Assembly: GCF_030253575.1 (NCBI RefSeq)
Contig: NC_080559.1
Coordinates: 9,142,501 to 9,206,500 of the forward strand
Direction: 5' to 3'
DNA from: Rhododendron vialii
Taxonomy: Eukaryota; Streptophyta; Magnoliopsida; Ericales; Ericaceae
Length of the DNA stretch: 64,000 nt
Both the position numbers and the translations under genes were made by a program. Shown in pieces: positions 1 to 55,200 of this stretch. The stretch's first letter is position 1. Each line of letters begins with the position of its first letter. Under the pieces are notes generated by a model. That model did not search any database. It saw nothing but the letters and a program-made list of their open reading frames with translations, and was not told the DNA's origin.

Positions 1-455
1 AAACATACACACTCACATTTACATTAATTTGTGAATCCCACACACACTGTGGGTTCCCTACGAATGTGAGTATGTTTGTGAAAGCGTTTTTACAACTATT
101 TATGGTGTAAAAGAATTGATTCCTGACTTCACCCCAAGTTATATACGCTATTATGCCAGAGATTCGACGCACGATTTCTACAAACCAGTAGAACAAATTT
201 TTGCCACTTTCCCACTAAAAGTCATTCTCGCACATTGAGGGTGTTTGGAAGCTTACTTTTTGGCTTTTTGTGGCTTTTGGCTTTTTGGTAAAAATGTAGT
301 TTGAATCTGGTAAAATATTTTGGGGGTGTTTGGTTCCCATATTTTCAACTTCTCTTTTTTTTTTTTTTTTTGGCCACTTTTCCACTACAATTCATGAATC
401 ATGTTTGCCACTCTTCCATTAAAAGTCATGAATCATGTTTGCTACAACTAATTGC
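1..455. other. Left part of duplicated unit 1, non-coding
   Basis: No gene is visible. The stretch aligns with 38757-39180, sharing the runs around 'gtgaatcccacacaca' and 'gtgtttgtgaaagcgttttt'. The window therefore opens inside the left copy of the segmental duplication and the true left edge lies outside. Positions 236-345 hold a G/T-rich patch not seen at the matching place in unit 2. Confidence 0.7.
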
Positions 456-676
456 TTCTTTCTTTTTTTGGTAATGCAGCGTGTTCTGGGTCAGTTTGCG
501 CACATCTCGGACTAATCCTTACAGTCCCTCTCACTGCCGTTTCACACACATACACGTGAGAGTGAGGTGGCCCCAAGAGTTGTTGGCAACTTGGCAAGGA
601 GAATCGAATCTAAGACTTTAAGATAAAGCAAACACCTAAGTCTCAAGCCAAGACCACTTGGCCAACCCCTGGAGTT
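456..676 (-). mobile_element. tRNA-derived SINE
   Basis: On the minus strand this begins with a tRNA-like head: a box A-like 'tggccaagtggt' and a box B-like 'agattcgattctc'. It ends in an A-rich tail, seen on the plus strand as T-rich sequence near 457-469. It is flanked by a 13-bp target-site duplication with one mismatch, 443-455 (tacaactaattgc) and 677-689 (tacaacttattgc). A diverged relative in plus orientation lies at 34311-34526. It is absent from the matching place in unit 2, so it probably inserted after the duplication. It encodes no protein. Confidence 0.75.
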
Positions 677-933
677 TACAACTTATTGCCTTTAGTTAAG
701 TTGTTCATTCTAAACTAAAGTATTTTCAAAAGTTAAGTTGTTTCCATTAAACTAAAACATTCAACGCGTTTTCTTCCACTAACACTACACATTTTCTACA
801 ACTTTTAGTTTAGTGAAAATAACTTAACTAGCTAGAAATAGCTACTAGAAGTTGTCCATCAAACTTAACGGCATGTTTGTTATGGCTCCAATATGACCGG
901 ATGTAACACATAGTTCCGGATATGGAAATCCAG

Positions 934-1847
934 TTCTTTTTTGATCCAATTGGCATGGATAAAGAAATTAAAATATAGTTCTGAGGAGCTTAACTCCCCT
1001 TATATCATCTGGGATAACCTGATTAATACAAACTGGAATAGTCTGAATAACAACAAGACTACCATTACTACTACTTAAATAAGCCTTAGCGATTGCATCT
1101 GCACTTCGATTGGCCTCCCGAAAAACATGACATATTTCTGCTTTAAGCCGGTCCAGCAACACCCTGCAATCAGCAAGAAAGTTACTTAACTCATGGTTTC
1201 CCAGCTCTTTTCCTTAAAGGAGATGCATCAAAGTCACAGAATCTATTTCCATCAAAATACCCTGCAAATTTCGCTCTAAAGCAAGTTGCAAACCATCCCG
1301 TAGTGCCCAACACTCCACTACTGCAGTACTAGAATAAGCTGCAACAATTTTCCTTTGGAAACCCACAACCCAATTACCATGGCTGTCTCGTATGAGACCA
1401 CCTGCCACGCCAGATTTCAGATTCAGGTTGAAAGCTCCATCACAATTTAGTTTGAAGCAACCAGTTGGGGGAGGGTTCCATCCCACAAGTACAGTCCGCG
1501 TGCCACGGTTTACCTGATCGTGCTCACAAGCAAGAGCCCATTCAAGAGCTAGATTGGTAACATTCCTGATCGTAACCGAAATGTCAGAATTAGAGTAATC
1601 AAAAACACGACGAGTCCTGGAAAGCCAAATAGCACAAAGGGTTATAGGGAAAAGAACACGCCACGGAGCACCACAAGGATGAAATTTTTTTGAAACGCAA
1701 TTCACATGGACCCAGCATTCAAAGGGAAGTAGGAAAGAACTTCTAACATAATAAGGGACCCCAACACCGCACCACAACTGTTGCGCCGAGTCACAATCAC
1801 GCAACACTGTTGATAACGATCTTTGTCCAGCTGGTTGTCCGGTTCAA
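934..1847 (-). mobile_element. 5'-truncated LINE (L1-type), RNase H end
   Basis: A non-LTR retrotransposon fragment on the minus strand. It carries the end of the zinc-binding RT-associated region and an RNase H-like domain of the RVT_3 type (translated around 1214-1500, with 'KLNCDGAF' and 'GGLIRDSHG'). The C-terminal RNase H part continues at 968-1162 in another frame ('FREANRSADAIAK'), so the reading frame is broken near 1163-1213. The 3' end has a short A run (T6 at 937-942 on plus). A target-site duplication flanks it: 'ggaaatccag' at 924-933 and 1848-1857. Unit 2 around 39380-39420 keeps the uninserted sequence. No reverse transcriptase remains, so the copy is dead on arrival. Confidence 0.8.
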
Positions 1848-1857
1848 GGAAATCCAG

Positions 1858-2570
1858 CTCTACTCATACACGGAGGGTTTTTTCTTTTCTTTTTTGGATC
1901 CCTTCGCAGTCCGCCAATGTGTCCGAAGAATCTTCTCATCTAAACCAAACTCCTGGGTATGCCATAAAATTAAATGGAAAGGTAAATTTGCAAGTGGTAG
2001 CATATCCAAGGTAGCATCTCCAACCATTTCTATTTTTCCAAAACTAGGGTGGATCGATGTGACACATTGAGGATAAATTTTATAATTTTTTTTTTCTTTA
2101 TTTTTGTACTTTTTGGGAGAATTTTAAAGGGATTCATAGTTCTTTTTAGAGATTTGGTCCTCTTAAAATATTGTGATATCTTCTAAATACAAAGGACTAA
2201 AAGTAAAATTGGAGACCAAATCTATAAAAAAGATGATGAGTTCCTTCAAGATTCTTTCAAAAAGTAATAAAAAAAGGGGGGTAAATTATAAAATTCTCTC
2301 TTAATGTGTCACATCTATCCTCCATTTTGGACAAAAAATAGATGAGTTGGAGATATAGAGTTCGCCTTATTTAGTGTTTCAAGGGCATTGTCAAATGATG
2401 CCCCAAGTCATGCTCCATTACACATTTTGTGTGGGCTTCACATACATTATGGTGGAATCACACAAATATGTTGAGGCACCACGCGGCAATGCTTCTAAGG
2501 CAATGAATATTGATTTTTCTCGCATAAAAGTGAGCAAGAAAAATTAGCATGTGGTTTTGAGATAAAACAA
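1858..2570. other. Intergenic, homologous to 39420-39770, with a foldback MITE
   Basis: No gene. The outer parts match unit 2 (for example the run ending 'gtccgaagaatcttctcat'). Positions 2013-2356 form an inverted repeat absent from unit 2: the left arm starts 'agcatctccaacca' and the right arm ends with the complement near 'gagttggagatat'. Both arms carry a 'gtgacacatt'/'aatgtgtcac' block. I read this as a non-autonomous MITE of about 345 bp. Confidence 0.6.
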
Positions 2571-2579
2571 TGCTACGTC

Positions 2580-3120
2580 CAAGGACAGATCTAAAGGGGG
2601 GCACGTGCCCACACTCAAATGCGTGCCCGCACTCGAAATTAAAATATATTTATATATAAATTAGCATAATTATGAAAGTGTGCTAATATATATAAACATA
2701 CGCACTTGCATATATCTCGAAAGCACACATATAAAATTAGTTTTATGCCTGAATTTCATCATATGGTGCATTTGTATTTGTTACTTTACGAGTTGCTTGT
2801 CTATTTGGAGCTATTCTTTCTTCATTATCTTTATTTTTAACCGTCTAGAAGAAATATTTTAAAATAAAATCATTAACAAAATTAGCTCGATCATTATAAA
2901 ACTTGTCGATGTTTATTTAAAATATATTTTAAAATTTGCGTCTAAGATTTTGTGCTCATCTTTACTTAATTTAACTTAAAGTACGCGTTTTAAAATTTTG
3001 TAGTTAGTAATGCATGCCTTAATTTTGTATAATCTTACTATGGTTGACTTAAAAAAATGAACTTTTGCCATTATGATTAACAGGTGCCCCCACTAGGCTT
3101 TATTCTTGGATCCGTCCCTG
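2580..3120. mobile_element. Non-autonomous hAT-like element
   Basis: Terminal inverted repeats are imperfect: left 'CAaGGACaGATCtAA', right (reverse complement) 'CAgGGACgGATCcAA'. Flanks are an 8-bp duplication with two mismatches: gctacgtc (2572-2579) and tctacgtt (3121-3128). An 8-bp duplication and CAGGG-like ends fit the hAT superfamily. The interior is AT-rich with no transposase. It is missing from unit 2, so it is probably younger than the duplication. Confidence 0.6.
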
Positions 3121-3130
3121 TCTACGTTCA

Positions 3131-3405
3131 TCGCACATCACGTGGGGCCTATTCCGGGCCCCATAAAAATATTTTCCTCTAAAAAATCAGCTCTAACGGA
3201 TATCGGTAGATATCTTTTCTGAATTTGTAGGGTCGAAACTACTCAACTGCTCAATTTCACCCCTATGAATTCAGAAAATATATCTCCTAATATCCGTTGA
3301 AGCTGATTTTTTACAAGACCCCGTAAAAAAATATTTTAAAATTTATAAATATTTCTCTATATTTTTATGGGATCCGAACTAGGCCGCACGTGGCGTGCGG
3401 TTGTT
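3131..3405. repeat. Palindromic MITE next to the hAT
   Basis: Two arms can fold back: 'cacgtggggcctattccgggcccc' near 3139-3162 pairs with the region near 3368-3400, and inner blocks 'aatcagctctaacggatat' and its complement also pair. No coding capacity. The whole interval is absent from unit 2. Confidence 0.5.
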
Positions 3406-4575
3406 GACTTAGACTTACTGTAATCGTAATTGAGACATGTCCCCGCAGTATATCAATTCATTAGCCGACCGGGCTACGTGGTTTGATGAATGAGGGTGAC
3501 TTTAGGGGTTGGGTTTGGCAGTGATTAGATGAATGATGGTGTGTGTACTCAAGGGGTAGTAATTATATTTGAGACTTTTTGGTTGCTTAATTTGACTTGC
3601 AACAAACAATATTGATTGATTATTGGTCCCAAAAAAAAGAAAAAGATACGGTTTATTGCCTTATTGGGATGGTGGTGGAATTTCAAAATGGGTGAAAATG
3701 ACTGGTTGGAGTACTGCAGAATTTATATTTGGACAGGGGCCGGTGATGGTTGTTCAGTCAGTTCATCTATGGTTCAATTCGTTCTTCAAAGTACTCCAGT
3801 GAGCAATAATTGACTTAATTTGGTGAAGGTTGAAAATTAGTACCCCAGAAGATGACAAGGGAGCTAATCAAGTGTTGGCACGTTTACAAGTTCTTGAAGG
3901 AGAAGGAAACAGATAAAGATGACTGTGCCCACCTGGCAAAAAAATACGATTTTTTCTTCCCTTTTTGTTTTTGTTAAAAGAAGTGCATTAAAACTAAATT
4001 AAGAGTTTACAATTCGGGAGTACTTGAGCATTTGAAAACTCAAATCTAATAAGGATTCGATACAATTAATGGGAATAGAAGCATAATAACAAACCGCATC
4101 CGTGTCAATGGTGGTGTGTGGTGTCACTTGCAAATGCATCGACACTCAGCACGCTTAATTTGGTTGAGACAACCGTCGTGGTGGGTGGGTCTGGGTGCAG
4201 TGAGGGGTACAAGTATTTTTGGCAATGGTGGCACAGGTTTGGTGGGTTGTAGACAATTATAGATGGTCCAAAATAGGAAATAAAAATTAAAGGACCTTAA
4301 GCAAACTGCTACACATGACTTCATTCTCCTGAGTGTTTACAAATGAATTAAGTATTAATCTAGCTAGGATCCTAATGAATCAATTGGTGCCCATGAATGC
4401 AGTGTCACCGGTTCAACATTCTTGAACATCTTCTCAACTCAAATCTCTAACACATATTGAAATGGAACCAAAAGTTTAATTTGCAGCTTTGTTTTTGCTT
4501 GATTTTACTTGATTGAGCAAAGACACAGTAAGGATTTTAACTTGATGGTGGAGAACGTGGATAAATAAATAAATA
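3406..4575. other. Intergenic, homologous to 39780-41740, no gene seen
   Basis: Long matches to unit 2 include the runs around 'atgaatgatggtgtgtg' and 'gacaattatagatggtcc'. No open frame here resembles a known protein. The unit 2 counterpart is interrupted by a hAT (40158-40518) and a Stowaway-like MITE. Confidence 0.6.
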
Positions 4576-4949
4576 AATATATATATATATATATATATGG
4601 AGTTAGGTTCCGGTGAGGGATTCCTCATTTTATTAAAATGCGGGACTCCCCTTCCCGATTGAATTTGGATGATCCGAACCGCTCAAAGTGATCAGAACGT
4701 GATTTTAAGGGTCCCCTTGAGAAATCAACAAAAAAAATGACCGGGAATGGCTTCATCCGAGCAGTTTTCATTGAACGGTTCAAAAAAAACTGCTCGGATG
4801 ACATCCTTCACGGTCATTTTTTTTGCTGATTTCTCTTGAGGACCCTTAAAATTACGTTCTGCACACATTGAACGGTTCGGATTTTCAAAATTTGATCGGA
4901 AAATGAAAGTCCCTCATTTTAATAAAATGAGGGATCCCTCACTTGAAAA

Positions 4950-5034
<85 letters not shown>

Positions 5035-5460
5035 AGTCTTAAATGAGGGAGTCCGCATTTTAGTTAAAATGCGGACCTCCTCATTTCTCTCATTTCCTGA
5101 TCGAATTTTGTAGATTCGAGCCGCTCAATGTGTTCAGAACGTGATTTTAAGGGTACCCTCTAGAAATCGGCTGAAAAAATGACCGGGAAGGGCTTCATCC
5201 GAGCAGTTTTTGTTTAAACTGTTCGATAAAAAACAAACAAAAACTGATCGGACGAAGTCCTTCCCGGTCTTTTTTTTTTTGTTGATTTCTTGCGAGTATC
5301 CTTAATCATATTATGAACACATTGAGCGGCTCAGATCATCGAAATTCGATCGGGAAAGAGAGGTCCGCATTTTATTAAAATGTGATGGTCCTCATAAGAG
5401 AGCGACTGATATACGGTCAGTCTCAAATGAGAAAGTCCGCATTTTAGTTTTATATATATA
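4576..5460. repeat. Two palindromic MITEs embedded in (TA)n/(CT)n microsatellites
   Basis: A TA tract (to 4598) precedes a first foldback element, about 4599-4954, whose two arms of about 160 bp are near-complementary ('tcatccgagcagtttt' mirrored around 4765-4800). Then come (CT)n 4954-4984, (TA)n 4985-5031, and a second related element at about 5032-5413. A left-end scrap of a third copy (5414-5440) and more TA follow. A third full relative lies at 30385-30761, also bounded by TA repeats on both sides. There is no coding capacity. Unit 2 lacks these elements here. Confidence 0.75.
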
Positions 5461-6200
5461 TATTATAAAAAAAACACTGAAAAGATGGATATATCACAAT
5501 AGAACTATTTATCGACTTTTAAAATATCAAAATAACATCATAAAACTACGGTAAACAGTGTTTTTCACATACATCCACAGAGAGACTAATTTCAATGTCC
5601 ACCGGTGGGGACTCAATTAAATACACGCATGTATAGGGAGAGTTAAAATCAGATAGTACTAATTAGTAACTCAAAGTTTGATTTTATCAACAAGAGACTT
5701 GCTATCAAATCCCTTGCTATAGAAATTTTCAGAGAACTCCTGCATCGTGAAATCTCGGTAGATAGCTGGTTTTTCAGGACTCAGCAACTCCGGCAAGGGT
5801 CCGTAGTATCCAGATCCTTTTCACTTGCAAAGATTGAAGAATATGACAATGGAGATTCTCGGTTCCGGGTTAGAGTTAGCCAACACGCGGTGTTCCACAC
5901 TTTTGTAATCGCCATTAGAGACTATCTGCAGAACCAAATTACGATAGATTAAGCATTACTTAATACCATAGCAACTAAACTATTAGGGTATTCAAAGATT
6001 GCAAGTTTTTACAAAGCGTTATACCAATTTATTAAATTCTTTGTATGTGATTTTTGTCGCAAAACTGTTACTAGAATTTAAGTTAATCAATTTCGAACAC
6101 CCTCAAAAAAAAATTCTGGAGCCGCCACTGTTTATACACACCCGATGGCATATACCTCTAGCAAACTTCCATAAGCTTTTCTATGTGATTTTTGAACCTG

Positions 6201-6377
6201 GGGATGGGGATGGTGCTGTGCGGGCCATGTTGTGCACCATATGAGCCGTCCGTTCGGAAATCCAACGGTCAAGATCATCTCCATCATTTGAGCATCCGTA
6301 TTGTTCATTGTCGAGATGAGATATGCACCATTAAATTACAAAACGGGCGACTCGGGTGGTGCACAGCACTGTCCCCA
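6201..6377. repeat. Small palindromic MITE in intron 2 of copy A
   Basis: The ends are inverted ('gggatggtgctgtgc' versus 'gggtggtgcacagcac') and the interior contains 'gagccgtccgttcgg'. The same element sits at the same intron position in the intact gene (42475-42660), so it inserted before the duplication. Other relatives are at 29424-29592, 49235-49425 and 59350-59525. Confidence 0.6.
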
Positions 6378-7012
6378 GTTCCCAATTTTTTGTACCTGCG
6401 TTTTTCCAAACAAAAATTGTGTTACCTGAAGGAAATCTCCAACGTTGATTATCAACCCACCCTCCAAAGGCTTGACATCCACCCACTCCCCACCGTGCTT
6501 AACCTGCAACCCCTGCACCTGATTCTGCAACAAAACCGTCACTACCCCAGGATCCGTATGCGACGTAATCCCTACCGTCAGATCAGGCTGCGGACAGTAC
6601 GGATAGCAGTGGCCCACAAGAGACCTAGCGCCCAAAAAACTCAACTCTTTGAATTTTTCAGCTTCCAGTCCTAACCCTTCGGACAAGAGCCCCATCACCC
6701 TCTCGGCCACCTCCGTCGAGTGCCGGTCCCACTCCGGCACGCGGCCGGGATGTCCTCCGCCGGAGCCGGCTCCGGCGACAACCATACTTGCAGCGAGTCG
6801 TGCCAGCACGCGGCCTTCGCTCTGTACAAGTCGTTGTTGCTCGCGTACATGACGCCGCGTCCTTCCTCTCGTACGTAGTATTTTGATTTCTCCTCGGTTG
6901 GTTGTTCGTGAAACGCTTTGATGGCGGCAATTGTTTCGTCAAGTGCCTGTTAAGAACAACTTTGTAATATCTTCAACACAATAAATTGGAAATGGACCCA
7001 TGTCTTGCTTAG

Positions 7013-8165
7013 CCGGGTGACATGTGTAGGTTTGGTCAAAATAATGGATTGTTGACTAAAAGAAAAACTTTGACCAACCACTTACAAAGTGACACGTGGA
7101 AGTGACAAAAGAACGGAATTCATGTAGTCTGTTCTATGATGAGAACCTCAGCGCCAGGTGGCATAGAGTGGGACCCGCGTGCAGACATAGCGCGAGGGGG
7201 TGGACTTCAAAGAAATCAAATAAAATAATAAAATGATTAAAAGAGAACAAAGAGATGGTGAGAATCATCGCAATGGGGGATCGGTCCGCGCAAGCTCCAG
7301 AAAGCCAAAGAACGCAAAAAAGACCTAGATACCTAAAGATCACTTACATAATAGAGTGTGCCCTAGTCAAAGGCAGAACCAATGGGTTTAGCAAAGATAC
7401 GATCGTCGCGGGTCGCGACCTTGCTTCTACGGAAATTGGGGGAGATCTAGTGGTTTGTTGTCTAAGGAAAAGGGGTCCGTCGCGGGGTAGCGCACGTCAC
7501 CCGCACGCTATGCCCGCGCAATGATGTCACCCTCGCGACCTCGGGAACAGAAGGGACACGTGTCGAGATTAGATTGGACCGCTTTGGGAACCACCTTAGG
7601 CCCAGAGGCCTATAAATAAAGGTCCGACGTTCCTTTTTTGGACACACTAAGAGAGAGACAGAAACAGGCTTTTCTAGAGAAAAGATTAGAGGATATTAGA
7701 CTTAGGAGGGATAACATTCTTCTTGGGCTAATATCATATGATCCATATGGGATACATAACTAATGGAATGCTTAGAGTATCTCCAATACCTGATAAAACG
7801 ATCTTGTCAGTAAGAACTACGAGATCACCCCAAGGACGCCTTCGGCATCCAAGGGTCATGGACTGTCAAAGTTCGACAAAAATATAGATGCTAATCCAGA
7901 AAAAAAAATAGAATTATTCCTTGTTTTCCAAAATAATCTTTTATTGAAGTCTTAAGAAAAAAAGATGTCATTTGTTCAGTCGGTAGGAACAAGTTTTACC
8001 TGTATGCGACATGCTGTCTTTGTCCTTTCTGTTTCCACGCCATTTTCTTTCACCCCACTAGACTACTCCTCTTTCCCCCATTCTTTTAACTACTAACCAA
8101 TCATACCTCTCCAACTCACGTAAGATCTACACGTCAGCTACCTAGCGCAAAATACGAACCTACAA
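7013..8165. mobile_element. About 1.15-kb insertion in intron 1, class unresolved
   Basis: Unit 2 joins the flanks directly (around 43315-43340), so this block is an insertion or an old segment lost from unit 2. It contains a promoter-like stretch: 'cctataaataaagg' near 7609-7622, then a purine-rich leader. The ends share a short imperfect inverted repeat ('tgtaggtt' at about 7024 and 'aacctaca' at about 8157). A solo LTR or a short DNA transposon would both fit. No protein is recognised. Confidence 0.4.
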
Positions 8166-8817
8166 CATGCACATGTCATTTTAGGAGTATTTCGGTCATT
8201 TTTCGGCCGTTACCCAAGGACCTGCTAGCAGGAGAAATTGTAGCCAAACGACCAAGCAGATGTCGTTTGGCATGCCCATGACGTACAAAGGAATCAAAAG
8301 TATTTGACCAAAGATTAATACTCCGGCCGATCAAAAAAAAAGCATTTGACCAAAGATTTACAGACATATAAAGCACGTTGATAAAACTATGAAATCGATC
8401 CATGTTTTCGGCTTTCGCAGCTTCTTGGATTCGCTCCACAATCTTTGCCCGATGACTATCGAAGTTTATGTTAAGAGAGATCAATAATGGAATGGGTATA
8501 CTTACCGACCGGAGAAAATAAAACATCCGGAGTAGTTTTGCAACACAAGTCTTTTGGAAATAAAAATATGGCTTATGTTGTAGAGGACAGTCCAAGAAAT
8601 CGTAACTGTCCCAAAGTATTTTTAGGGGTACAGAATTCAGATTTGTCAATACGCACTCTCTTATCCGTAAGTTACTATTCTCACCGACTGAACTATTTCT
8701 TGTCGAAATGAATTATCGAGATTGATTTAACTACAGTGCTTCTGCGGTGATGGACTACATATGAGTCGGGTCCTTATAAAATTACTACTAATTAACAAAC
8801 CAGGAACGATCAGAGAA

Positions 8818-9289
8818 TCTATTCTAATATATAAAGGGAAAGCACTTCTTTGGTGTCTCCCCTCCTGTCATGTATTTTCATTTTCCATAAATACCCTTAC
8901 AGTTACCCAACTCTTAACCCCAATTCTCAAGGATATATTCGCACAACAAAGTTTAATAACTGCTTATACACGATGCAAGTAACTGCCACAAAATGGGCGA
9001 CCCCACGTACAAACACTACTTGCGGTTACTCACCGAACAGTTACTCTTCACCTTCCGCAGCCCAATCCCAAAATGGTGGAATTTCATTTTACTGGCTGCT
9101 GGCAAAAGCTTTGTATACCTACAAAGTAACTCCAAAAGAGATAATCTATGCTTCACACGAAAATCAAGAAATCAAAAGAAGGTATCCTTCGTCCTCTTTC
9201 ATGGTTCCTATGAATTCCTCTTCCAGTTTTTGTGTTTTTTATGAATATCTCTTCCAGTTCATGGTTCCCATAAACTGGTGTTTTCTATG

Positions 9290-9379
<90 letters not shown>

Positions 9380-10539
9380 TTTGTACCCGTTAATTTAATA
9401 ATCAGTGTTGGTAAGTTATGTCTAATGCTAAGCCTCTCATTCTATAGATTTTCGTTAATTTGTTGTCGGAGAAGTCGTTCGAGGTTTTTGGAGGGCCAGA
9501 GAAGCAACGGTTGTGAAAAAAGGTAATATATTTGATATTCTTCATCTTTTTGGACCCTAAAATTTCTTCACGCCATTGGCACTGTCCATAATGATTAGCC
9601 AATTTTAATAATTTTGTATTTGTTTTTTTCCCTAATTTCAGTTTCTTACAGAAGAAGAGTTTTAAACCGTGGAGGGACTTTGAAATACAGAGTTGCGTCA
9701 AAAACACCCCTTATATGCACATGCCATTCCTAAGCTTTGTTAACCGATCGAAAGGGGTACACATGTAAATGAAGCACTCAATTATAACTGTTGGCGGTTC
9801 TCCATGCCATCAAACTCCACTTGGACCACTTCAAAGACACACTCCACGCCTCCACTCTAATAATTGCTATGGAGGAAGTTGAACAGGTAGAATTTTGGAA
9901 TTTTACGTCAATGTATTTTTTCCCCAATGTCAATGTATTTAATGAACATGAGCCCCTTTTGGGTTTTTTTAATCCCTATTTTAAAATTTAGGTACGTGAG
10001 AGCCCTATTGTTTTGGTGATCATAAACGTGAATTGTTGTATTACATGCTCAAGAGAATAATGAGGTATGTGTCTATATATTCATAGTTTATTTTTTCGCT
10101 TTTCTTTTATTCTTTTCTGAGAATAATATGTGCAATAAGTACTTTTTTCCATGACCGATTTCGTACAAGGCAACGTTGGCGCATGAGACAAGTTTTCTAA
10201 CTTAGATTTTGAGAGGGACAAAATTGAAAGAGATAAAACAGATCTTCTCTTCTGTCAGTGGTGTATATGTTATATACTATTCATCTTCTTCATTTTTCCC
10301 CCAGTGTTTTGTTTTATCTTTTTGTTGTTAGCGTCACTGTAATTTCACTTAAATCTTTACAATCGTCATAATTTTATGCAATTGAATTGTTAATCTATCT
10401 TAGCATAATTTTAAACTAGAGGCCGGGACATATGGGATGCATGTGCAAGTCTGATTTCCACAACATTTTTGTAAAAATGCTTCCTACTTATTGTTTGATC
10501 AAATTTTTACAAATGTTGTAAAAATTCTCCGGCCTCTAG
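8818..10539 (+). mobile_element. Non-autonomous Helitron, 1722 bp
   Basis: It starts 5'-TCTATTCTAATATATAAAGGG and ends ...CTAG-3' (10536-10539). It sits between A (8817) and T (10540) without target-site duplication, as Helitrons do. A hairpin with stem TTTTACAA/TTGTAAAA and loop ATG (10505-10523) precedes the end. The paralogous intron in unit 2 (about 44028-44040) reads 'agagaatatatata', the exact empty site. The interior holds (CT)n(CA)n at 9294-9379 and no Rep/helicase, so movement would need proteins from elsewhere. It lies inside intron 1 of pseudogene copy A. Confidence 0.9.
9294..9379. repeat. (CT)n-(CA)n compound microsatellite
   Basis: About 33 CT units (9294-9360) run directly into about 9 CA units (9361-9379), inside the small Helitron. 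Open frames through it (SLSLSL, THTH) are artefacts of the repeat. Confidence 0.95.
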
Positions 10540-10939
10540 TATATATAATAACTCTGCTTTCACACAAAAAAAAAAAATTGCAAACAATACCGAGACGGGC
10601 ACGCCATGGTTGATCACTTGGAAAAAACCCCATGTTTTCGCAGCATCTCGGATTTGCTCCACAATCTTTGCCCGATTACTGTCGGACTTCATGTTAGAGA
10701 GATCGATAACGGGTATTCCGGTGGACGTGGACGAGGATTTGAGATCGGAAAGAGTTTCCGGTGGGTGTACGAAGAACTTAGGGATGGTGGTGATGCCGGA
10801 GTCGGACAGACCTTTGACACCCATCTTTGATTCATCGAATTCCTTCAGTTCCTTCATCCGGTCATAACCGGCAATCGTACCGGCGGCTGCCATTTGCTTC
10901 CTCTGTGTGAGGTTGTGATTGTTGACTAGAAGTTTATAC

Positions 10940-12600: not shown

Positions 12601-13110
12601 CTAAAGGTTGTCGAGAATTTCTACCTGATGACGAAATTTATTTTTCGTCATTTATAGTGTTTTTTGATGACCAATAAGCACACAATATTGTATATTATTG
12701 TGCTTAATATATCTCATTTTCTATATAATTATGTTTATTGTTGAATATGTTAGATGATATTGCGCGTAAGATATGTTTCTCTTAATTTCAAGTAATTTAA
12801 GATAAAATGTTACTGTTGACATCTAATTTGGCCTACCCATTCAAGCGCGAAAAAATGACGCAGATATCGTCACCATGAAGTGCAAATAAAAATAAAAATT
12901 TTGACTGCACCCAATCGAACACAAAATGGAGCGCTGCAGAGCAGAGTCTCAGTAGAGATACCAAAATAATCTGAAGGAACGAAAATTGGACAACGTGCAT
13001 TGAATTTGCCGGAGATAAATAATGCAATTGTCGGCATGTCCATGAGATAGTGACATTGAGACAATGACAGTAGCAAAATTATTCAACGTGGTTGCCTAAT
13101 AGCCATCGCA
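12590..13110. repeat. Remnants of a CACTA-like end and an LTR-like sequence
   Basis: 12590-12665 has the 'gatgacgaaa'/'ttcgtcat' repeats seen in the CACTA remnant at 26905-27804. From 12666 ('tgatgacca...caatattgta') it resembles the start of the LTR-like block at 45276, including a shared 'gcgcgtaag'/'gcacgtaag' stretch. Both are degraded and encode nothing. Confidence 0.35.
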
Positions 13111-13138
13111 CAACACTGGATCATTTTTTCAGCTTCGA

Positions 13139-15030: not shown

Positions 15031-15047
15031 GTATCCTATGTTATTAA

Positions 15048-40518: not shown

Positions 40519-40564
40519 CAAGGGTGCCAATCAAGTGTTTGCAGGTTTGGATTCACAATGATTA

Positions 40565-44370: not shown

Positions 44371-44412
44371 TTGCTTCCTCTGTATGAAGTTGTGATTATA
44401 CGTTGAGTAGAT

Positions 44413-44421
44413 GTTTATATA
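44413..44421 (-). promoter_or_regulatory. TATA box of the intact dioxygenase gene
   Basis: Minus-strand TATATAAAC about 45 bp before the start codon at 44370. The corresponding site of pseudogene copy A (10933-10938) is also TATAAA-like. Confidence 0.6.
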
Positions 44422-44558
44422 CATGCGCCCCTAACTTTTATCATATGGGGTGACTGTTGTTTGGTAACAAAGGTGGGGTTGAGCGTGTAAAGCTAATCCG
44501 AATAAATGAATTATGGGTTGGTGGCCGAAACAAATGATTTTAGAATTAATACTATTTA

Positions 44559-44793
44559 CTCCCTCTGTTTTCATTCTTTAGTCTCTTTTGGAGTTTGTAA
44601 CACTTTTCAATTAATTATATCTTGCAATCTATAATTTTTTAGGTGATTTTGAAAATATCGTTTAAAAGAGCTTATTGAGATCTATCAAACAAGATCCATA
44701 TTGCATATAAATAGTATAATCAATTAAAAGTTATAATTAGTTTTTTATTTAATTGAGAAAGTATGAGAGACAAAAGAATAAGAACGGATGGAG
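44559..44793. mobile_element. Stowaway MITE upstream of the intact dioxygenase
   Basis: 235 bp with ends CTCCCTCTGTTTTCATTC and (reversed) CTCCATCCGTTCTTATTC, flanked by TA (44557-44558 and 44794-44795). Unit 1 has the empty site near 11092 ('ctatttagata'). It lies about 190 bp upstream of the start codon, within reach of the promoter. Confidence 0.9.
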
Positions 44794-45275
44794 TAGATAG
44801 TTTTGTTGCATATTCGTAAGAGAAACATAAAATTGTGCCTATATTAATAGAGATTTTTTTATATATATAATATGATGTCCGGACCAACTTACAGGCATGT
44901 CATCCGATTCGAAAATCTAGAACTTAATAACCGGGCAAACCCATTAGTGTCCTGAAAGTTTACAATATTTGACCTCCGTAAAATTCGACATATATGTAGC
45001 CTCATGGAAGACAATCTTTTATTTGTTTTGATGCCCAATTGATCAAAACCCTTCTAGTTAATTAAGACAAGATAAATCCTCAATTTGAAAAAAAAAAAAA
45101 ATTAGATCATATAGGGATACTTTTGGATCTCGATGGTATTATGTGTCAATGAGTAATGTGTCAGCGCAAATGGAAGTATATTGATTTATTTTCACATTTC
45201 TTAAAATCGTTCTATGAACCTCGAATGAATGAACTTTGAAAAAATATATATCCTAGGAAAATTTGTCTAATTATA

Positions 45276-46200
45276 TGATGAGCACCCAATATTGTAGATA
45301 TTTGGTGCGACTAGTCCCGCTTTATGTTGTTTTATCTTGCATTTATTTAACTTTTATAGCGATAATGCACGTAAGGTAGGTTTTTGTATGTTTCAGGTAA
45401 TTCGTATAAATAAAGCGCGTTTGAACGCCAAGAAATGCTCCGGATGTTTTCAAGTACCCGAAGACCCTGTCGACCGCTTAAAATCTGTCTAAGTATGGAA
45501 AAATAACTTTCTGGAAAAATATCGATTTTCGAGATAAAAAATGGCGGTAATTGATCCTTGAATTTTTCTAAGAGTAACTACAAAGTTGCAAGATTTTATT
45601 TGAAGAGTAAGGTCATGTTTTGATTCATTTTCTCTTGAGAAAAATGTGTAGTTTTTCATTTTACACTAAAAGTGGGGGGTTAACATATTGATATGATTGA
45701 AATTTTGAAATTCTGGTAATGTCATTGTTTTCAAATAGGGAGTACTTTCTTAATTTCATTAAATAAAGAAAAGGTTTAAAATGTAGTCTTTACTTAAATT
45801 TAGAGAATGAAAATAAGATGCTGAGGAGCTGTGAAGTTGCTGGGAGTTGTTTGCTGAAGCAAAAGCCTCAACCTGGAATCTGCAGTTTTGCAAATTGTTA
45901 TTGATACCATTTGCTCCATCTTGGTCCAGAAGCTATCCAGACCTAAGGGTATCGATAACCTTTGGTGTACGTATCGATACCAGTCTTCTCCGAAGAGATA
46001 TTTGAGTGATGTTATCGATACCATTTTTGTAGGTATCAATGGTATCGATAACATTGGTTTTCTGCAGATATTTTTGTTGCTTTTCAGACTTTCCACTTAA
46101 GAAAACTTTCTTTTAATGGGTAGCTTTTTGGGTTATTTTCTGACTTTTGTAGAGAGAGAAAGCCCTTGTGTAGAGAGAGAAAGCCCGGGTGCAAATCTTA
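45276..46200. repeat. LTR-like sequence with repeated TATCGATA motifs
   Basis: It begins 'tgatgagcacccaatattg', where unit 1 continues without it. The middle part carries at least four 'gtatcgata'/'ttatcgata' motifs (45950-46045). The end has a duplicated 'tgtagagagagaaagccc'. The layout suggests an LTR of a retrotransposon, but no primer-binding site, polypurine tract or second LTR is visible. Confidence 0.4.
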
Positions 46201-46379
46201 TCGTCCAACAAGTAACATGACAATTAATTATTGGGCATCATTTACATCAAGAAACCCACATCTCAACAAAAAAAAAATCTGAGAAACTCCATGAAAGTTA
46301 TTGGGCATTCTTTACCAGACAAATCGAGAGACCAGAATCAAGAACTCGTAGGTATATTATTTGGTGTTTTTAACACCTG

Positions 46380-46384
<5 letters not shown>

Positions 46385-46461
<77 letters not shown>
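46385..46461. repeat. (GA)n microsatellite
   Basis: About 38 GA units in a row. The frames across it (ERER, SLSL) are artefacts. Confidence 0.95.
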
Positions 46462-46464
<3 letters not shown>

Positions 46465-48956
46465 CAGATCTATGGCGGCGATAGATTTTGGAGCAGGAAA
46501 AGTGCGATCTTGGAGTTGTACGGGTAAAACCTACCTGTTGCAGCCGATGAGTGACTTCGACGTCGGCGCCTCCATGAGATAGAGGGACACATAGAGGTGA
46601 GAAAAAACAAAATCGAAATCGAGATAACCCTAAAAACACTTTGAACAGGAGGTCGAGAGGTCGAGAGAGATTACCCATGAATATCGGCGATCAAAGCGTT
46701 GACGGTCTTTGCTCTTCCAAGTTGAAAGCACAGAGGGGATGAGAGAGAAAGAAAACCAAGGGGAAAATAAACCAGTGGAGCTGGATGGAAAGGTCTGGAC
46801 TCTGGGGGAAGTTGCCAGAGAAGACAGTAAAGGAACGGGCGAGATACTTCACGCATCCCGTAGGGCACTCAGATCATGCCAGCTAGCCCACTACCCCAGG
46901 CCCGTGCGAAATTACGATTTTAGACACCCAAAACCCTCTGGCCTGAAACTTCGGAGGACATTATTGGAAAAATTGGACAAAAAATGCCATCCCCCAATCC
47001 GATCCTTATTATTTAGGAGGATGGAAATGTCTGGGCAAGTGTCTTGGTTAGGTGTCCGAAGTCCTGAAATTAACGAGCAAACAAATCTTTTAGTGGCTAT
47101 AATATTTGGAGGAATGTTTGACCTTTGGCATCAGCAAAGGCGGGTGTTAAAAAGAACAAACACTTACTTGCTTTCGAAATTTTTTCGTCTTATTGAACTT
47201 ATCACAACTTTGGTCTATATTGTTAAACTTTTTCAATTTCTACAAACGATTGAAAACTAATGTTTTTTGTACCAGGTTAAAGATGAGTTGGAAGTTGAGT
47301 TCCTAATGCATTAACTTCCAGCAATTTGTAGTTTATAACTACCTACAAATTTGCTTCTTTGCTAACCAACTCATCTTTTTCAATTTCAATAGAGAACGCA
47401 TTAAGAAAGTACAAAACCACCAAATACTACCAGAGAAATCAGCTTCAATGTTCCAAATTCGTGAGTTCCCCCTTCATATTTACTACGCTATTTGCCACAA
47501 AGCTAACCTGTCATTAAACACAGCTACACTATCTGCTCCAACAAAAGAAAATACTAATCTCCAGGTGGAAACAGAAAATGGAGACCAAAACAGACTACAA
47601 CAAAGTAAGAAAATGGTTCCGCCGTTAGAGAAGAAGATCAAAACAGATACCAGCAAAACTCTCGACCTCCTATTTGGTCGGGTATTCCTCCAAGAGATAT
47701 ACACATAGTAACTACAAAAGATACCAACAATACCGTTGGGAAAAATATGAAACATTACTTGAAAATAACACTCAGTCAGCTAAATATGAATTACGGGTTG
47801 AAAAAAATAATTAGGGCAGATATTCAAGTGCTTCAATGACATGCAAAAGTTTCAAGGGCAAAACAGAACCGACAATATCGGAAATAGAAAAGACCAAAAA
47901 AATCTATTATATCTGGGCGCAACGTATATTTGTTTCAGATTTTATCAAGCAAGAAGTGTTTGTGAAATCCTACCACTCGAGTGCACCAATTTCATCGTTG
48001 GGTTTTTGGAAAGATCAAATTCTAATTTTACATTAAAGATACTGGCCTAATTGCATGCTTTTACACATGCAATTCATCCAGAGGTAAACTGGAGTTTTGT
48101 TGTGAAACTGGAGAAAGGTTTCAAGTCCTTAGCAAGTAGATATTCAGCCCATGAAATTTTTAGGTTAGTTCATTCTTAGTTGGAGTATATGTAGACACTG
48201 AAGGCGAAAATACGACTTAAGGGTCAAGGCCTCTACGTTCCGTGGCAATTGGCTTTGAATTCTCTTGGAAATATTTATAGTTCCCAAATCACTCATTCTT
48301 CATAGGTCTCTCGCACATTCCGTCGAACGCATAAACTGCGCGTGTAAATTTTAAGTAGAAATTTCTACTCGCACATTCATCTTCCACGCAGCTTTCAACG
48401 TTGTTCTTGATGTCGAGACCTCAGTCGATTTCGTCGCTGTGACACATTGCGGTGGATTTCGTTGCCGGTGGCACCAGTAAGAGAGGTGGATTTCGTCGAA
48501 GTAAGAGATGAGAGAGAGAGGGGGAGCAGTGTAGATGAGAGTGAGAGAGATAAAAGATTACCAGGGAAACCCATTCTTCTTGCCAATGGTGCAGGGCCAG
48601 AGAATCCCATTACCAAGGGGTTCCAAACGACGCTGATTTTTTTTTTCCTGGCCAAACCCATTATTCTACTCGACTAAGCTTAGTTTTTTTCTTCTTCTAA
48701 TCAACACAACAGAAGCTGATTGGTAAGGGGGAGGGAAAAAAATACTGATTGCGTTTTTTAATATATTTGAAAGAGTGTGGTTACGTTATTAAAAGTAGGA
48801 GAACACATCTCAGCCCTTGGATCAAATGAATCTCAACCTTTCTAACAACTTGTGTTTGTCTGGGGTCCACATCCTTGTGTTTTATTATATAGAATTATAT
48901 AGATATAGATATTAGATAGTCACTCCGGAATCAAAATCCCAGAGCCGACAATCGAC
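46462..48956. other. Intergenic; no gene recognised; part of duplicated unit
   Basis: 47040-47250 matches 27810-27990. 46470-46900 and 47255-48909 have no counterpart in unit 1. 48880-48909 read on the minus strand resembles a Helitron 5' end (TCTATATCTATATAATTC... then 'caagggctgagatg'), starting right where homology to unit 1 resumes. No matching CTAG-type 3' end was found, so only the terminus is suggested. Confidence 0.4.
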
Positions 48957-49045
48957 ATTTTATGTTAGAGAGATTAATGATGGGTATTCCAGTGGACGCG
49001 GAAGAGGATTTAAGATTGGAAAAAGATTCATGTAGGTGTACAAAG
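48957..49045 (-). pseudogene. Dioxygenase exon-1 scrap (copy E')
   Basis: Minus-strand translation resembles the 'FVHLHESFS...SSASTGIP' part of exon 1 of the dioxygenase genes. It is the unit 2 counterpart of 28288-28390. The start codon half has been lost. Confidence 0.7.
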
Positions 49046-49609
49046 TACTTAGGGGATTTGTACTTGATGTAATGTTTTGCTCCTGTTATTTACTCATTCA
49101 ATTCAATTTTGGCCAAGGGTAAAGGGTAATTATGCCAAGAGGAACTTAAATAATGGCCACCTAACTTTGAACACCCCCTTTTGGTCGTGTTTGGCTTCTC
49201 CCCTGTTGCCTTCGATTCTAAGAAACACTCTGGCTGAACCAGGGATGGTGTTGTGTGGCACCTTGTTGTGCATATTTGGGTCTTTCGTTTAGTAATTTAA
49301 CGGTTCAAATTTTATGTCCACCATCCGAGTCGTTTATTACTGAGATAAAATATAAACCGTTGGATTGTCAAACCAACGGACTAATGTGCATAGCACGGTA
49401 CCGCAGGTATAGCACCCCATTGCTGACTAGTTAGTTTTACTTATCGTAAACTATCATTTTCTTTCTAGACCAATACACTTTTTGACATTTAAGGCCTACC
49501 TAAAGCATGACTTTGACATTTGAAAGGCACCTAGCTTCATCACAAGTTATTATCACCAAACTTTCGGTTCTTTGTAGACCGAAGATCTTGACATTCGTGA
49601 TAATGGGGG
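49046..49609. other. Duplicated intergenic DNA with a shared MITE
   Basis: 49078-49590 matches 29270-29720, including the palindromic MITE at 49235-49425. No gene. Confidence 0.6.
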
Positions 49610-50399
49610 TAGAGCCGGCTTATAGCCAAGGCGAGGGAAGCGAGCGCTTCGGGCCTCCGAAAAAAATTAAAAACGATGGTTTCCAAATTTTTAGGATTCC
49701 TATATATATATATATGTATGTATATATGGTTCACAAAAAATTGCACTAGACTTCTTTACACAAAATAGGCCCAATTGAAATTTAAGAACCACAAAATAAG
49801 CCCAAATTGTGGAATTATTCATTAGAAACACTAATGCATTAAAAAAGAAGAAGAAGAAAATAACTTAAGGGTCAGCAGGAACTAGCAAGGAAGATATGGC
49901 CAATCAAAAAAGATCAAAAAAGAAAAAGAAGATATAACCGATCATAAGGAGTAAGTACGGCAGAAACTAGAAACGCTTCATGCTTGAGGAGTAGAAGGGG
50001 GGAGGAAGACAACAACCAACGACTGTGGACGGAAAATACTTGCACACGGAATTCCTTGAGGCCTCTCTTTTACTATCTCTACCTCTACCAAGTAAGTTTA
50101 AATGGGTTGACTATGTTGTCTATCGAGAAGGAGTTGGTGAAGCAGCTTGACTATGGAGACTTAATCAGTGCGTTTGCAGCAAAAAGTGCGAGAAGAATAA
50201 TTTTTCAAATGATGGATGTTGAGGTATTGTAATAGTTGCATTTTTTTTGGGATAATTATATGCTTCTATTTTGTAATGGTAAATCTTTTGTATTGATTTT
50301 TTTTTATGACTCTTTGTAGATCACGTTTGTATGAAAAATATAGGGTGGCCTCATTCAAGAGGTTCGCTTCCGACCTCCAAAACTTATGAGCCGGCCCTG
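49610..50399 (+). mobile_element. Deleted hAT transposon with transposase C-terminus
   Basis: 790 bp, ends TAGAGCCGGCTTATAG and (reverse complement) CAGGGCCGGCTCATAAG. Perfect 8-bp duplication 'aatggggg' at 49602-49609 and 50400-50407. Unit 1 is uninterrupted at the corresponding place near 29735. It is an internal deletion derivative retaining the last piece of its transposase gene. Confidence 0.85.
50098..50232 (+). pseudogene. C-terminal remnant of a TTF-type zinc-finger/hAT transposase
   Basis: Encodes 'LNGLTMLSIEKELVKQLDY' followed by 'LISAFAAKSARRI', then a stop at 50230-50232. This is the characteristic end of plant TTF/MYM-zinc-finger hAT transposases, where 'L..LSIE..L....DY..LI..FA..KARR' is conserved in the dimerisation domain. 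The rest of the protein is missing. It lies inside the hAT ends, confirming the element's class. Confidence 0.8.
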
Positions 50400-50407
50400 A
50401 ATGGGGG

Positions 50408-51420
50408 GACAAAAAAACCGAGTGTGAAGGCTTTAAAGGGTTCCTCCACCAGCTGTGTTGCAGCTTTGGGCTCTGAGGAAATGGCTTGAACCGGGGGCGG
50501 CCCAACTTCATTGGAAGTCCAAAGCGAAATCTAAGATTTGAGAAGTATTCATGTTGAACATTTTAATGTGATATATATTTTTTGTACGTATTTGAAAATT
50601 AAAATTCTTTCTTTTTGAGATGTAAATTAAGTTACTACTCAATAATATACCTAGTCTCTAGGATCTACAATTCTAGTAAAATCTGAAATATGAGAGAGTT
50701 TAACATTATGACCGATCAATCCTTAATTGTTTAAAAAAAAAAGATCTTGTTTTTGGAGACATTTCACCTAAATGAAGCTTTTTTATTGATTGAGAATTTT
50801 TTGAAAGTTGCATATACTACATACACATGAATCATGGACGAAATCGATCTAGGTCCTTCAAAATTGGAGGCCGGCCTTGGGCATGCACTAGCCTCAATGG
50901 CCTGCGGGTGCTTGGGCCGCTCAAGCTTTGCAACTTGCTCCAAAATAGCCAGAACTTGCAAAATGTTGACATCAAAACGGATCTTAGGTCAGAAAGAAAA
51001 TCCTCCAATTGGGCCCGCCGCTCAGATAAATTAAGCCGACTACAACATTAGTGATCCGTCCACTTTTTAATTTCCTTAGATAACATTTTTCATCACCAAA
51101 AATATAGTATATTGATAACTCGATAATGGGTACATCGAAGAAAGAAAAGGAAAGAACGGCACACAAACACAAACCCATGGATGCACCATGTAGCAAGAGC
51201 AAAGCCAAGAGGAAAAAAAACACAACCTCCCACGAAATATCAAGGCGCAACCTCATGTTGCTCTTCCGATATTCATCAATATTAGTCATTATTGGGTTGT
51301 CTAAATCTGAAGTCATCAACCAGGCAAAAAACGGACCAGCACTATAATCTTCCCGATAGGTAGTAGCGCAATGTCCATATTAGAAGTCCGAATTCGAGCC
51401 GTATATATATATATGCTTAG
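50408..51420. other. Duplicated intergenic DNA with a degenerate hAT-like insertion
   Basis: 50410-50540 matches 29780-29905 and 50990-51415 matches 29900-30330. Between them, about 50540-50985, is extra sequence whose right part reads 'ggccggccttgggcatgcac' and 'cttgggccgctc', typical of hAT termini. No gene. Confidence 0.45.
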
Positions 51421-52282
51421 GTCCCGACCACATTTTGATCGCGACAAAGTCCTGACACACCCGCTGGTCCCTCACAATCATCTACCCAATCACCTCCTTC
51501 TACTAGGTGAATGAAATCTATCCGAAAGGACCCAAACACTTTGAGAATATTAAACTAGAATTCAGAAGTCAGTATCAACAACAAACACCTGTTTGACTAG
51601 TTTTATATTATTCTGAAGTTAAACTAGAATTCAGAAATCAATATCAACAACCACCACCACCCGCTTTTGCTAATTCGGATATGTTTGGTTTGGGTTCTGA
51701 GAGAGGTGAAAATCTTATTCACGCAGGAGCCATGAATAAATTTTATGATACTCATTCTTGGCATCCGGATTCAAAATAATAATAATAACTATTAATAGTA
51801 ATAGATTCCGGATTCAAAATAATCTATTACCGTTGATAGATTATTTTGAATCCGGACTATCCAAATCACTTTTGAATGGTTGAAAACGCCCGTGAATAAG
51901 TTTCTCTCTTTTTATAGTAATAAGTGGAGAAAGATGGATATAGAAAATTTATTAGAGACCGTACCCAAAAATTTGAAGACCCCAAAACTAACAAGGCGGC
52001 CATCTAACAGCAACGATTGGAATATGGAAAGCAGCTCAGTGCAAACGACATTCAGGTGGATCACTTTCCTTGAATAGTCTAATCAAAACCAAATTAGTTA
52101 CATACAGTAGCTTAACTAATTAATTCCCGATTAACCATCTTTAATTAGAGTGCTAATCAACTACTTGTTCCCCAGTTTTATTACTAACCTAGGAACACAG
52201 AACACACACGCAAGAGAGAGAGAGAGGAGTTTCTTTATTTCTAGATTTTTATAACGGATCTGGGGCTATTCTCTATCTGGTC
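51421..52282. other. 3' flank of the invertase gene, with a foldback MITE at about 51712-51905
   Basis: The MITE has arms 'ccggattcaaaataat' mirrored by 'attattttgaatccgg' near 51840, and outer 'cttattcacg' blocks in opposite orientation. This part of unit 2 is missing from unit 1, where a deletion joins 30318 to the equivalent of 53745. Confidence 0.55.
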
Positions 52283-55200
52283 TCAGTTCATGAGAAGAGG
52301 ATTGGCCATGCTCCAGGCGTTGAGAGATTCGACTGTTATTTTCTCCGTGCCGTTGTTGAATGCAAATAGACGAGCATCCTTCGATACTGCTACGGTGGGG
52401 TAAACCCTAGATGTTATGCATGTTTTCCCTCCTGCTCCGAAACTTTCCACGACCGAGTGATCAATCTGGATTGTATAGAACACAAACTCGCAGTTAGCAA
52501 CCACATTCGTAGCTAGGGAGGAAGACACAAGACACTACAAGGTGTTAAATAGCAGTAGTAGCGGTATCAGGAGTATCAAATGATACGTAGTGAAAATGGG
52601 TGTAGCGATGGTAAAAAAAATTTCAAATATATAGTGCCCATGAAGCGGGCAAAATCAGTTTCAACGCTATACGTAGATAGATGGAGGATCGAAAAATTGC
52701 TACGTACGTAGATATTTAAATCCATGCATGAGAGAGAGAGGCGTACCAAAGTCCTTAGGGAAAGCTTCTTATCAGTTAAATCTACGTCCACAAAGCCAGC
52801 AAATGAAGGCTTATACGGTTTTTCATTCAATGAGGAACTGCACAAATGTACGAAATGTAGAAAAACCAAGTAAGAACTCAGAAGGAATCACGAAAAACAA
52901 TAAACAAATTCCAAAAAAAAAAAAAACTCAGTAGAAATATCCTAAAGAACAAAAAAAAAAAATGATAGATGTGTATCCAGTATCCACCAACCACACCTCC
53001 AAACTCACCTTTCTCTTACGCACATGGGCCCACTATTCTATGTGGACCCCATATTTCTACGATCCACGTGAATCCGTAAACGTGGGAGGGGTCTGGTCGG
53101 AGATGTGGTGGATGGATGTGTACGTAACACTGCTCGACAAGAGAAATGACTAGAACGAACATGTTACCAAATAAGTTAATTACAAATCCAATGAGAGGAA
53201 CCTTCAGGAGGAGTGTTTTAACAAACCTTGTTGCATCGGAGCACATGAGGACCACGTGCTTGTCTCCTCTTCTGAAAACCCTAAAGAAGACAGGGGTGTA
53301 TTCCGACAGGTCCTCGGAAGCCAGAGTCAAGAGCCCAAACGGTCCAACCCCACCTTTGTTGGTTGAACCCTTGCGGCTGCAAAGCTGTTGGGCGTCCATG
53401 GCTGCCCAGCTAGGATCGAATTTCTCAGCCTTGTCCAGACTTGGGAATGTGAAAGTCACTTCCACATCAGCCTAATCACACAAATAAACAAAAACAAATA
53501 AGCAATTTTGGAAAAAAAAAATACAAAATAGTATGTGGAACAAAATCAATGCACGTAGCACGTACGACGTGGGTGTGTAGTCTGTTGAGTTTGTGAAGCT
53601 TAATTTCATTTTATTAGAGTTTGTGAAGCCTAATTTCATCTAGCTAGTTTTCCGCTTCTCTAACTTTGTTGAGGTTCGGGGGGTTTCTGAGCGCGCAGAA
53701 AACATTCACAGCAGGATTAAATAGGGCATCACGGTAATCAATTATGTAAAATTCTGGGATATATATATTAGGCGCAACCAGTACAGTCATACATTCATCT
53801 TCATTCGGTAGATCATGAAAACTATTGTGAGCCGTTGATGTATACAGCTATCCAAGTCCGAAATCACACAAATTTCTGTGTCATGCTTTTCTGTTAGCGT
53901 GTTCTTTCCTTATTTATTCTTTCGTGCTTTTTTTTTGTGTATTGGTTGAGCGATTTGAAAACATATCCCATTTAATCTTGAATCTATATTATAGAGTATT
54001 CTCTGAAGAATTATCTTTTCCATTTCGGTGCCACTGTTGTATCATGGTTAGAACAAGAGAGAGAATAACTTATTTCGTAAAACGAAAAATAAGTACTTAC
54101 TAAAAAAATAAGAAACTTAGCGAAACGGGACCTTACAGTAGAAGGAGGGACAAACCTGTGCAGCTGTAATTCCTTTGATTTCAAAACGATCTCCCAACTT
54201 GAGCTGTTGATTGTTCAGGTGAACTTTCCTCCCTCTTAGGGTTTCTAATTCTTCTATCGGCCATTGTAGCAATTGTTTCCCACTTGGATCAAGCCACACC
54301 TTCCTCGGAATTGTCTACGACACACAAAAGAAAAAAACGAAAATGTTAAGATTCATAAAAGATAAATTGACGGTTTAGATTCACAATGATCAAATATCAG
54401 TATGTACAACCTGAACTCCAGCCCATCCTTTCTGAACATCCTCCTGAGTAGTATCCGATTCATTAGTCCATCCCCACAAGATCCTTCTGTTTTTACCCGC
54501 ATCATAAAACGTCTTTGACGCGTAAAAATTTCCGTAGTCATACCTCAACCCGGCCCAACTGTCAACGGAAGTATTATCCGGGACGTATCTATCCTTTTCT
54601 CGGAAATACGTCCCGATCGTGTAGTACTCGTACCTTGTCACATCGAGGCTCACTTTGAACACATGCTTAATATTTCCCTCGATCACCGAGGTCTCCAGCC
54701 CGGTTTCGCCATCCAACGAAACCGGATAAAAATCCGGGCATTCCCACATACCCGATCTCGCGGAGGAGTGTAAAGGGTGTTGGGCCTTGGTCCATTTCAT
54801 GAAATCCCTACTCCTATACAAATATACCAACCCCCTTTGCCTTCTCCTACTGCCCACCACCATCCTCCAATGCCCATCTTTGCCCCACCAAGCGGTTGTT
54901 GGGTCGCGGAAAGCGGATCCGTTCACGCCGACATCCGCGGACACCAAGGGGTTGTTGTCGGGTTTTACCCATTCCCGGAGGTACGGATCCGAATAGTTGG
55001 CGGGTATCGCGTAGTTTTGGACCTGGGTTTGGTTTTGGTCCACTATCCCTGTGTAGAGTATGATGGGCTTGTTACCCGGAAGGATTGTGGCCGACCCGGA
55101 CCAGCAACCGTATCGATCGAACGGCTTGGACGGGTAGATTGCCGGATCAAGTGAAGTCCAGTTGATCATGTCCGTCGATACCGAATGGGCCCACACAATG

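Follow-up and report, generated by a model that had tools for sequence, protein, structure and literature searches.

We analyzed a 64,000-nucleotide window of the Rhododendron vialii genome (assembly GCF_030253575.1, contig NC_080559.1, C3 below; C3:9142501-9206500) and conclude that this locus is likely a single, abutting, direct tandem duplication of a block of dioxygenase and invertase genes, with a breakpoint inside the invertase gene and subsequent reciprocal loss of dioxygenase copies. The two units contain the same blocks in the same order and orientation, lie next to each other, and are connected by one junction that joins the end of one unit to the start of the other. By its contents (spliced genes, Helitron proteins, and plant-type cell-wall invertase and 2OG dioxygenases), the window is recognizable as plant DNA. 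The dioxygenases are of two types, which we call outer and inner according to their position in the block. All coordinates are relative to the window, so that position p corresponds to C3:9142500+p and negative positions lie to its left; those of the main features are collected in Table 1.

In a self-comparison of the window, colinear plus-strand matches paired 14-32284 with 38878-54683 at 71 to 94% identity. Since a third dioxygenase gene was found in 32285-38756, we supposed that the first unit starts further left, and a copy of 32285-38756 was predicted to the left of the window before that flank was compared. The comparison agreed, as -4767..46 matched 32283-38813 in order. Thus, 32285-38756, which the first-pass annotation had treated as a spacer interrupting the duplication, is the start of unit 2, and the units abut at 32283/32284. 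With these corrected borders, the chain between the units comprises 34 blocks and 10,948 bits, whereas control comparisons of unit 1 with four flanking stretches of similar length gave 3 to 6 blocks and 203 to 520 bits, and a control with reversed unit 2 gave 4 blocks and 421 bits. There were 50 matches outside the chain, and the 4 that exceeded 100 bits were all cross-matches between inner and outer dioxygenases. In the 20 kb past each unit end, we found just four short matches to the units (78 to 170 bp, three of them on the opposite strand) and no extension of the colinear chain. The claim that blocks recur in the same order and orientation therefore stands, far above the controls, and the self-comparison that had been suggested as a check for out-of-order blocks showed that order is kept throughout.

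Table 1. Positions of the units, genes, and inserted or atypical tracts of the duplicated locus
Feature	Coordinates	Strand	Remarks
Unit 1	-4767..32284 (1..32284 inside window)		37,052 bp; start at C3:9137733; self-comparison and flank comparison
Unit 2, complete	32283..54683		Self-comparison and flank comparison
Junction of units	32280..32287		Parental breakpoints share GAT; junction reads AAT
D4, outer-type dioxygenase, intact	-2066..-4305 (left of window)	-	Unit 1; 366 aa; partner of D3
D1, inner-type 2OG-Fe(II) dioxygenase, pseudogene	5671..10893; exons 10893-10591, 6946-6426, 5925-5671	-	Unit 1
D3, outer-type dioxygenase, pseudogene	33115..36736; exons 36736-36430, 35878-35346, 33362-33115	-	Unit 2
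D2, inner-type dioxygenase, intact	41985..44370; exons 44370-44080, 43242-42709, 42239-41985	-	Unit 2; 359 aa
Dc, remnant of exon 1 of a further dioxygenase	28282..28647	-	Unit 1; sequence match
Dc, remnant of the same dioxygenase	48958..49053	-	Unit 2; sequence match
I1, invertase fragment	31190..32284	-	Unit 1; tail of exon 3 and exon 4 only
I2, cell-wall-type invertase (GH32), intact	52283..57598	-	576 aa; 7 exons; GH32 N and C domains
Low-divergence noncoding tract (about half usual)	29587-31105 (unit 1); 50997-51419 and 53759-54065 (unit 2)		Scan
16,244 bp without unit 2 counterpart	11567..27810		1,769 unmatched bases there in unit 2; Helitron_like_N and PIF1 helicase frames at 18060-22442
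hAT-like element, 579 bp, inserted in I1	31533..32111		14-bp terminal inverted repeats; 8-bp target duplication GTCTTTGA

Up to the join near 32283, the sequence corresponds to the right parent (leftwards from 54682), with a single base changed at the join itself, and beyond it to the left parent (rightwards from -4767). TCGAT having become TCAAT would be consistent with CpG decay at the junction. The join carries 3 bp of microhomology and falls inside exon 3 of the invertase gene. Only 33 of 121 in-register bases are identical between the two parental breakpoints, which is about the chance level, and a search for homology within 2 kb of the breakpoints returned six weak matches (the best being 32 bp at E 0.047), none of them at a breakpoint. 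Nonallelic homologous recombination, that is, recombination between repeats, was rejected since it would need long homology at the breakpoints; the lack of homology beyond the microhomology points to end joining or a replication-template switch instead. We also rejected alternative transposition of a hAT element, or any transposon-driven duplication, as inspection revealed no transposon end or target duplication at the junction. Reversed-ends transposition of hAT/Ac elements in maize yields tandem direct duplications, and the junctions of maize Ac/Ds duplications carry 8-bp target duplications, according to one account (PMC3744419); no such 8-bp duplication is seen at 32283/32284. In contrast to the maize elements, the hAT-like element of the present locus sits inside unit 1 at a distance of 0.2 kb from the junction, has a target duplication of its own, and lacks a copy at the corresponding site of unit 2.

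Two similar abutting blocks are also a common appearance of assembly errors in which two haplotypes are placed end to end. We find such an artefact extremely hard to credit at this locus, since the noncoding divergence of 0.136 and the many separate insertions would be far above ordinary allelic divergence, and since the junction cuts a gene, whereas from concatenated haplotypes one would expect complete repetition of the flanks.

We propose a single head-to-tail duplication of an ancestral block that would have held, in the direction of increasing coordinates and with every gene on the minus strand, an outer dioxygenase, an inner dioxygenase, a decayed dioxygenase remnant, and an invertase. 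On the right, the breakpoint would have cut the invertase within exon 3; on the left, it would have fallen ~0.5 kb downstream of the outer dioxygenase, on its 3' side. The ends would have been joined via ~3 bp of microhomology, presumably by end joining or a template switch. The left unit would have received just a promoterless 3' part of the invertase, while the complete gene stayed single at the right end. Purifying selection would have acted on both dioxygenase pairs during much of the period that followed, until one copy of each died, in opposite units.

Each unit was originally described as one dioxygenase gene followed by an invertase gene. The order of the two gene kinds is as described, but there are four dioxygenase genes or pseudogenes (D4, D1, D3, and D2) plus the Dc remnants, not two. 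D2 and D4 have uninterrupted reading frames between their start and stop codons, GT/AG splice sites, and both the DIOX_N and 2OG-FeII_Oxy Pfam domains. The reading frames of D1 and D3 are broken: a deletion has removed 13 bp from exon 2 of D1, whose exon 3 also has an in-frame stop (TGG to TGA), and another has removed 7 bp from exon 3 of D3. Remnants of Dc occur in both units, so the ancestral block would already have held a decaying third dioxygenase. The losses are reciprocal: unit 1 keeps the outer gene (D4) and lost the inner one (D1), and unit 2 keeps the inner gene (D2) and lost the outer one (D3). The statement that unit 1 lost both of its genes while unit 2 kept both is thus correct for D1/D2 and I1/I2 and fails for the outer pair, of which the unit 1 copy is intact and the unit 2 copy broken. 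Further copies of D2, D4, or I2 were not found by tblastn (E up to 1e-4) in 80 kb on either side, and, judged from sequence, one apparently working gene of each kind remains after the duplication.

The outer dioxygenase survives beside the original left flank only, and survival of the inner type is confined to the unit that has the invertase complete. One could imagine that the reciprocal loss was non-random, each survivor depending on regulatory DNA in or beside one unit only, so that the cluster was re-wired while single copies were restored; we hold this to be very improbable. Two single losses would by chance land in opposite units half of the time, and taken alone, the reciprocal pattern is thus weak evidence for anything.

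We found similar synonymous divergence (dS) in the three gene pairs. The values are 0.158 for D1-D2 (35 of 246 sites) and 0.169 for D3-D4 (37.5 of 248 sites), calculated from 352 and 355, respectively, of the 359 shared codons after exclusion of those with gaps or stops, and 0.149 for I1-I2 (13 of 96 sites; 95% interval, 0.078 to 0.261), calculated from the 143 I2 codons that align fully to I1. The 95% intervals of the three values overlap. Between the inner and outer dioxygenase types, dS is 1.31 to 1.53. Together, these values support one event, long after the inner and outer types split. At a rate near 6.5e-9 per site and year, which may not be that of this species, the duplication would be about 12 million years old.

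That one event would be marked by uniform divergence, as had been proposed, is borne out at the synonymous sites of the three gene pairs and not in the noncoding blocks. The noncoding Kimura two-parameter distance is 0.136 over 7,438 sites (0.146 to the left of 29700 and 0.076 to the right), as calculated from BLAST-aligned blocks only, with the most diverged sequence uncounted. Divergence differs among the 23 of 34 blocks that remain when the 11 with fewer than 100 noncoding sites are left out (chi-square of 77.6, 22 degrees of freedom), and the low-divergence tract at 29587-31105 has 65 differences per 1,000 sites (block-permutation P of 0.0005). Both results weigh against a single duplication and favor an origin in which several independent duplications or later gene conversion assembled the units block by block. 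We nevertheless consider such an origin quite improbable, since the three gene pairs, spread along the unit, are alike in dS, the junction is single, and the order of the blocks is kept. Gene conversion limited to 29587-31105 is possible; it gains no support from the adjoining I1-I2 exons, with their dS of 0.149, though the interval of that value is wide. The same three features, order, a single junction, and similar dS, uphold the earlier scheme of one duplication followed by separate insertions and gene decay.

Conversion was also considered for exon 2 of D3/D4, which is 93.8% identical versus about 80% in its neighbors, and was rejected: dS is 0.135 in exon 2 and 0.188 and 0.226 in exons 1 and 3, the exon 2 value is also in line with D1-D2 (0.154 to 0.164), and coding constraint suffices as an explanation. 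As a side observation, the unit 2 stretch 50997-51419, at ~0.9 kb downstream from the stop codon of I2, is open for most of its length in one minus-strand frame (50984-51379), with no Pfam match.

The ratio of nonsynonymous to synonymous divergence (dN/dS) is 0.16 and 0.20 for the two dioxygenase pairs, which shows that both were constrained for much of the time. When changes were polarized, the dead copies had 25 nonsynonymous and 21 synonymous changes and the living copies 13 and 27. Pooled, D1 and D3 reject neutrality over their whole history (P of 0.0005 to 0.005, depending on the assumed transition/transversion bias), as does D3 alone (P of 0.005 to 0.02), so the dead dioxygenase copies probably died late. 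Two results count against this timing: the contrast between living and dead copies is borderline (Fisher P of 0.052), and for D1 by itself the rejection of neutrality is not clear (P of 0.03 to 0.09).

A 9-bp mini-exon of I2 completes the motif NDPNG, and the FRDP and WECPDF motifs are also present; WECPD is a sign of cell-wall invertases. The best match of the I2 exon 3 frame among solved structures was to CWINV1 chains (PDB 2XQR and 2AC1), which we take to be the Arabidopsis cell-wall invertase. I2 shares motifs, mini-exon, and domains with cell-wall invertases of family GH32, with no difference noted, and by domain and motif criteria it is a predicted cell-wall-type invertase.

The part of I2 at 52283-54683 lies inside the duplicated segment, and exons 1 and 2 and most of exon 3 lie outside it, to the right of 54683; this 5' part (54684-57598) is single-copy in the stretch examined. 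Read in the frame of I2, I1 has 5 stops in the 143 aligned codons. It is also interrupted by the hAT-like element, and neither the block comparison nor tblastn found a match to exons 5 to 7. Genome-wide (532.6 Mb, 13 contigs), the invertase exon has 13 matches, the nearest of which, besides I1 and I2, is 64% identical and lies on contig C8. That a whole gene pair was duplicated, as first claimed, is doubtful: no second copy of the 5' invertase exons was found in the flanks of the units, although one may have existed and been deleted later.

On the simplest interpretation, the invertase copy of unit 1 arose truncated; we base this on the junction and on parsimony, not on the branch test for I1. 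In that test, the I1 branch has 8 synonymous and 11 nonsynonymous changes (4 of them stops) and the I2 branch 4 and 1, while 3 of the 27 differences were not polarized by the four paralogues. Several points speak against truncation at birth. I1 has fewer nonsynonymous changes than expected from lifelong neutrality (P of 0.03 to 0.09, by assumed transition bias), and the branch test thus leans slightly the other way, with a polarization that itself rests on paralogues of at most 64% identity. Furthermore, a larger duplication could have included the whole invertase, with a later deletion from I1 exon 3 to the left of D3 taking out the 5' part of I1 along with the first junction. This course of events would leave the same final sequence, and the dN/dS of the I1 branch (0.36 to 0.48) is below full neutrality. 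We regard it as unlikely, as it requires a second event that erased every trace of the first junction, the sequence being otherwise non-discriminating, and as I1, with its stops, hAT-like insertion, and lost exons, appears to have died earlier than D1, which has two lesions, or D3, which has one.

Unpaired DNA amounts to 26.4 kb in unit 1 and 11.8 kb in unit 2, in apparent agreement with the claim that unit 1 took most of the large insertions. However, this excess is one 16,244-bp stretch, without which the gap sums are 10.2 kb in unit 1 and 11.9 kb in unit 2, and there is no general insertion bias toward unit 1. Of the transposon classes named by the first-pass annotation, we saw Helitron proteins, an RVT_3 domain, and a hAT-like element with an 8-bp duplication; for the Stowaway class, we have ends judged by eye. 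The Helitron frames at 18060-22442 are near-continuous, with Helitron_like_N, PIF1, and Pif1 2B domains in three neighboring open frames. A candidate Helitron 3' end lies at ~25545, where a hairpin is followed by CTAG and, across the boundary, a T, and 13638 is one of four candidate 5' ends. The Pfam RVT_3 "Reverse transcriptase-like" domain is at 1214-1843 and would fit a long interspersed nuclear element. Terminal inverted repeats of at least 14 bp together with an 8-bp direct repeat were found at 2 of 21 clean one-sided gaps, namely, the hAT-like element (31533-32111) and an 811-bp unit 2 insertion (49601-50411) with 15-bp terminal inverted repeats and the direct repeat AATGGGGG. Two short unit 2 insertions (43768-43997 and 44552-44793), ~78% alike over 105 bp, have CTCC...GGAG-like ends beside TA, which we take to be Stowaway-like.

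Among other repeats, 14727-15034 is a perfect two-copy tandem repeat with a 152-bp period and is followed by a 545-bp ACC-type trinucleotide array (15243-15787), and members of a repeat family lie beside AT dinucleotide runs, in both orientations, at 4561-5413, 30328-30810, and 79985-80578 (right of the window). Rfam at gathering scores gave 0 matches in the window, and in four sets of single open reading frames of the window, Pfam matches were obtained for 0, 4, 6, and 1 of 10.

One locus combines a junction resolved to the base with three dated gene pairs and two matched, mostly neutral sequences, and rates of insertion, deletion, and gene death are thereby comparable inside one chromosome stretch. 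It illustrates that gene number can stay the same through a duplication that separates the surviving copies and that a "lost" gene may have been incomplete from the start. Each process involved is already known; the locus is a clean example of ordinary genome evolution, seen unusually clearly. A literature search found no published account of it, though the search was hardly able to reveal one.

Tandem direct segmental duplications with a microhomology junction are a known kind, which the present locus resembles in its head-to-tail units, its one 3-bp junction, and the gene cut at the breakpoint. The mechanism is the same, and the present locus is old enough (dS about 0.16) to show reciprocal decay. 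A study of tandem-duplication pseudogenes in plants (PMC7935947) reports an excess, over functional loci, of pseudogenes that arose by tandem and proximal duplication. At the present locus, by comparison, decay struck opposite units in two gene pairs, and the breakpoint runs through a third gene.

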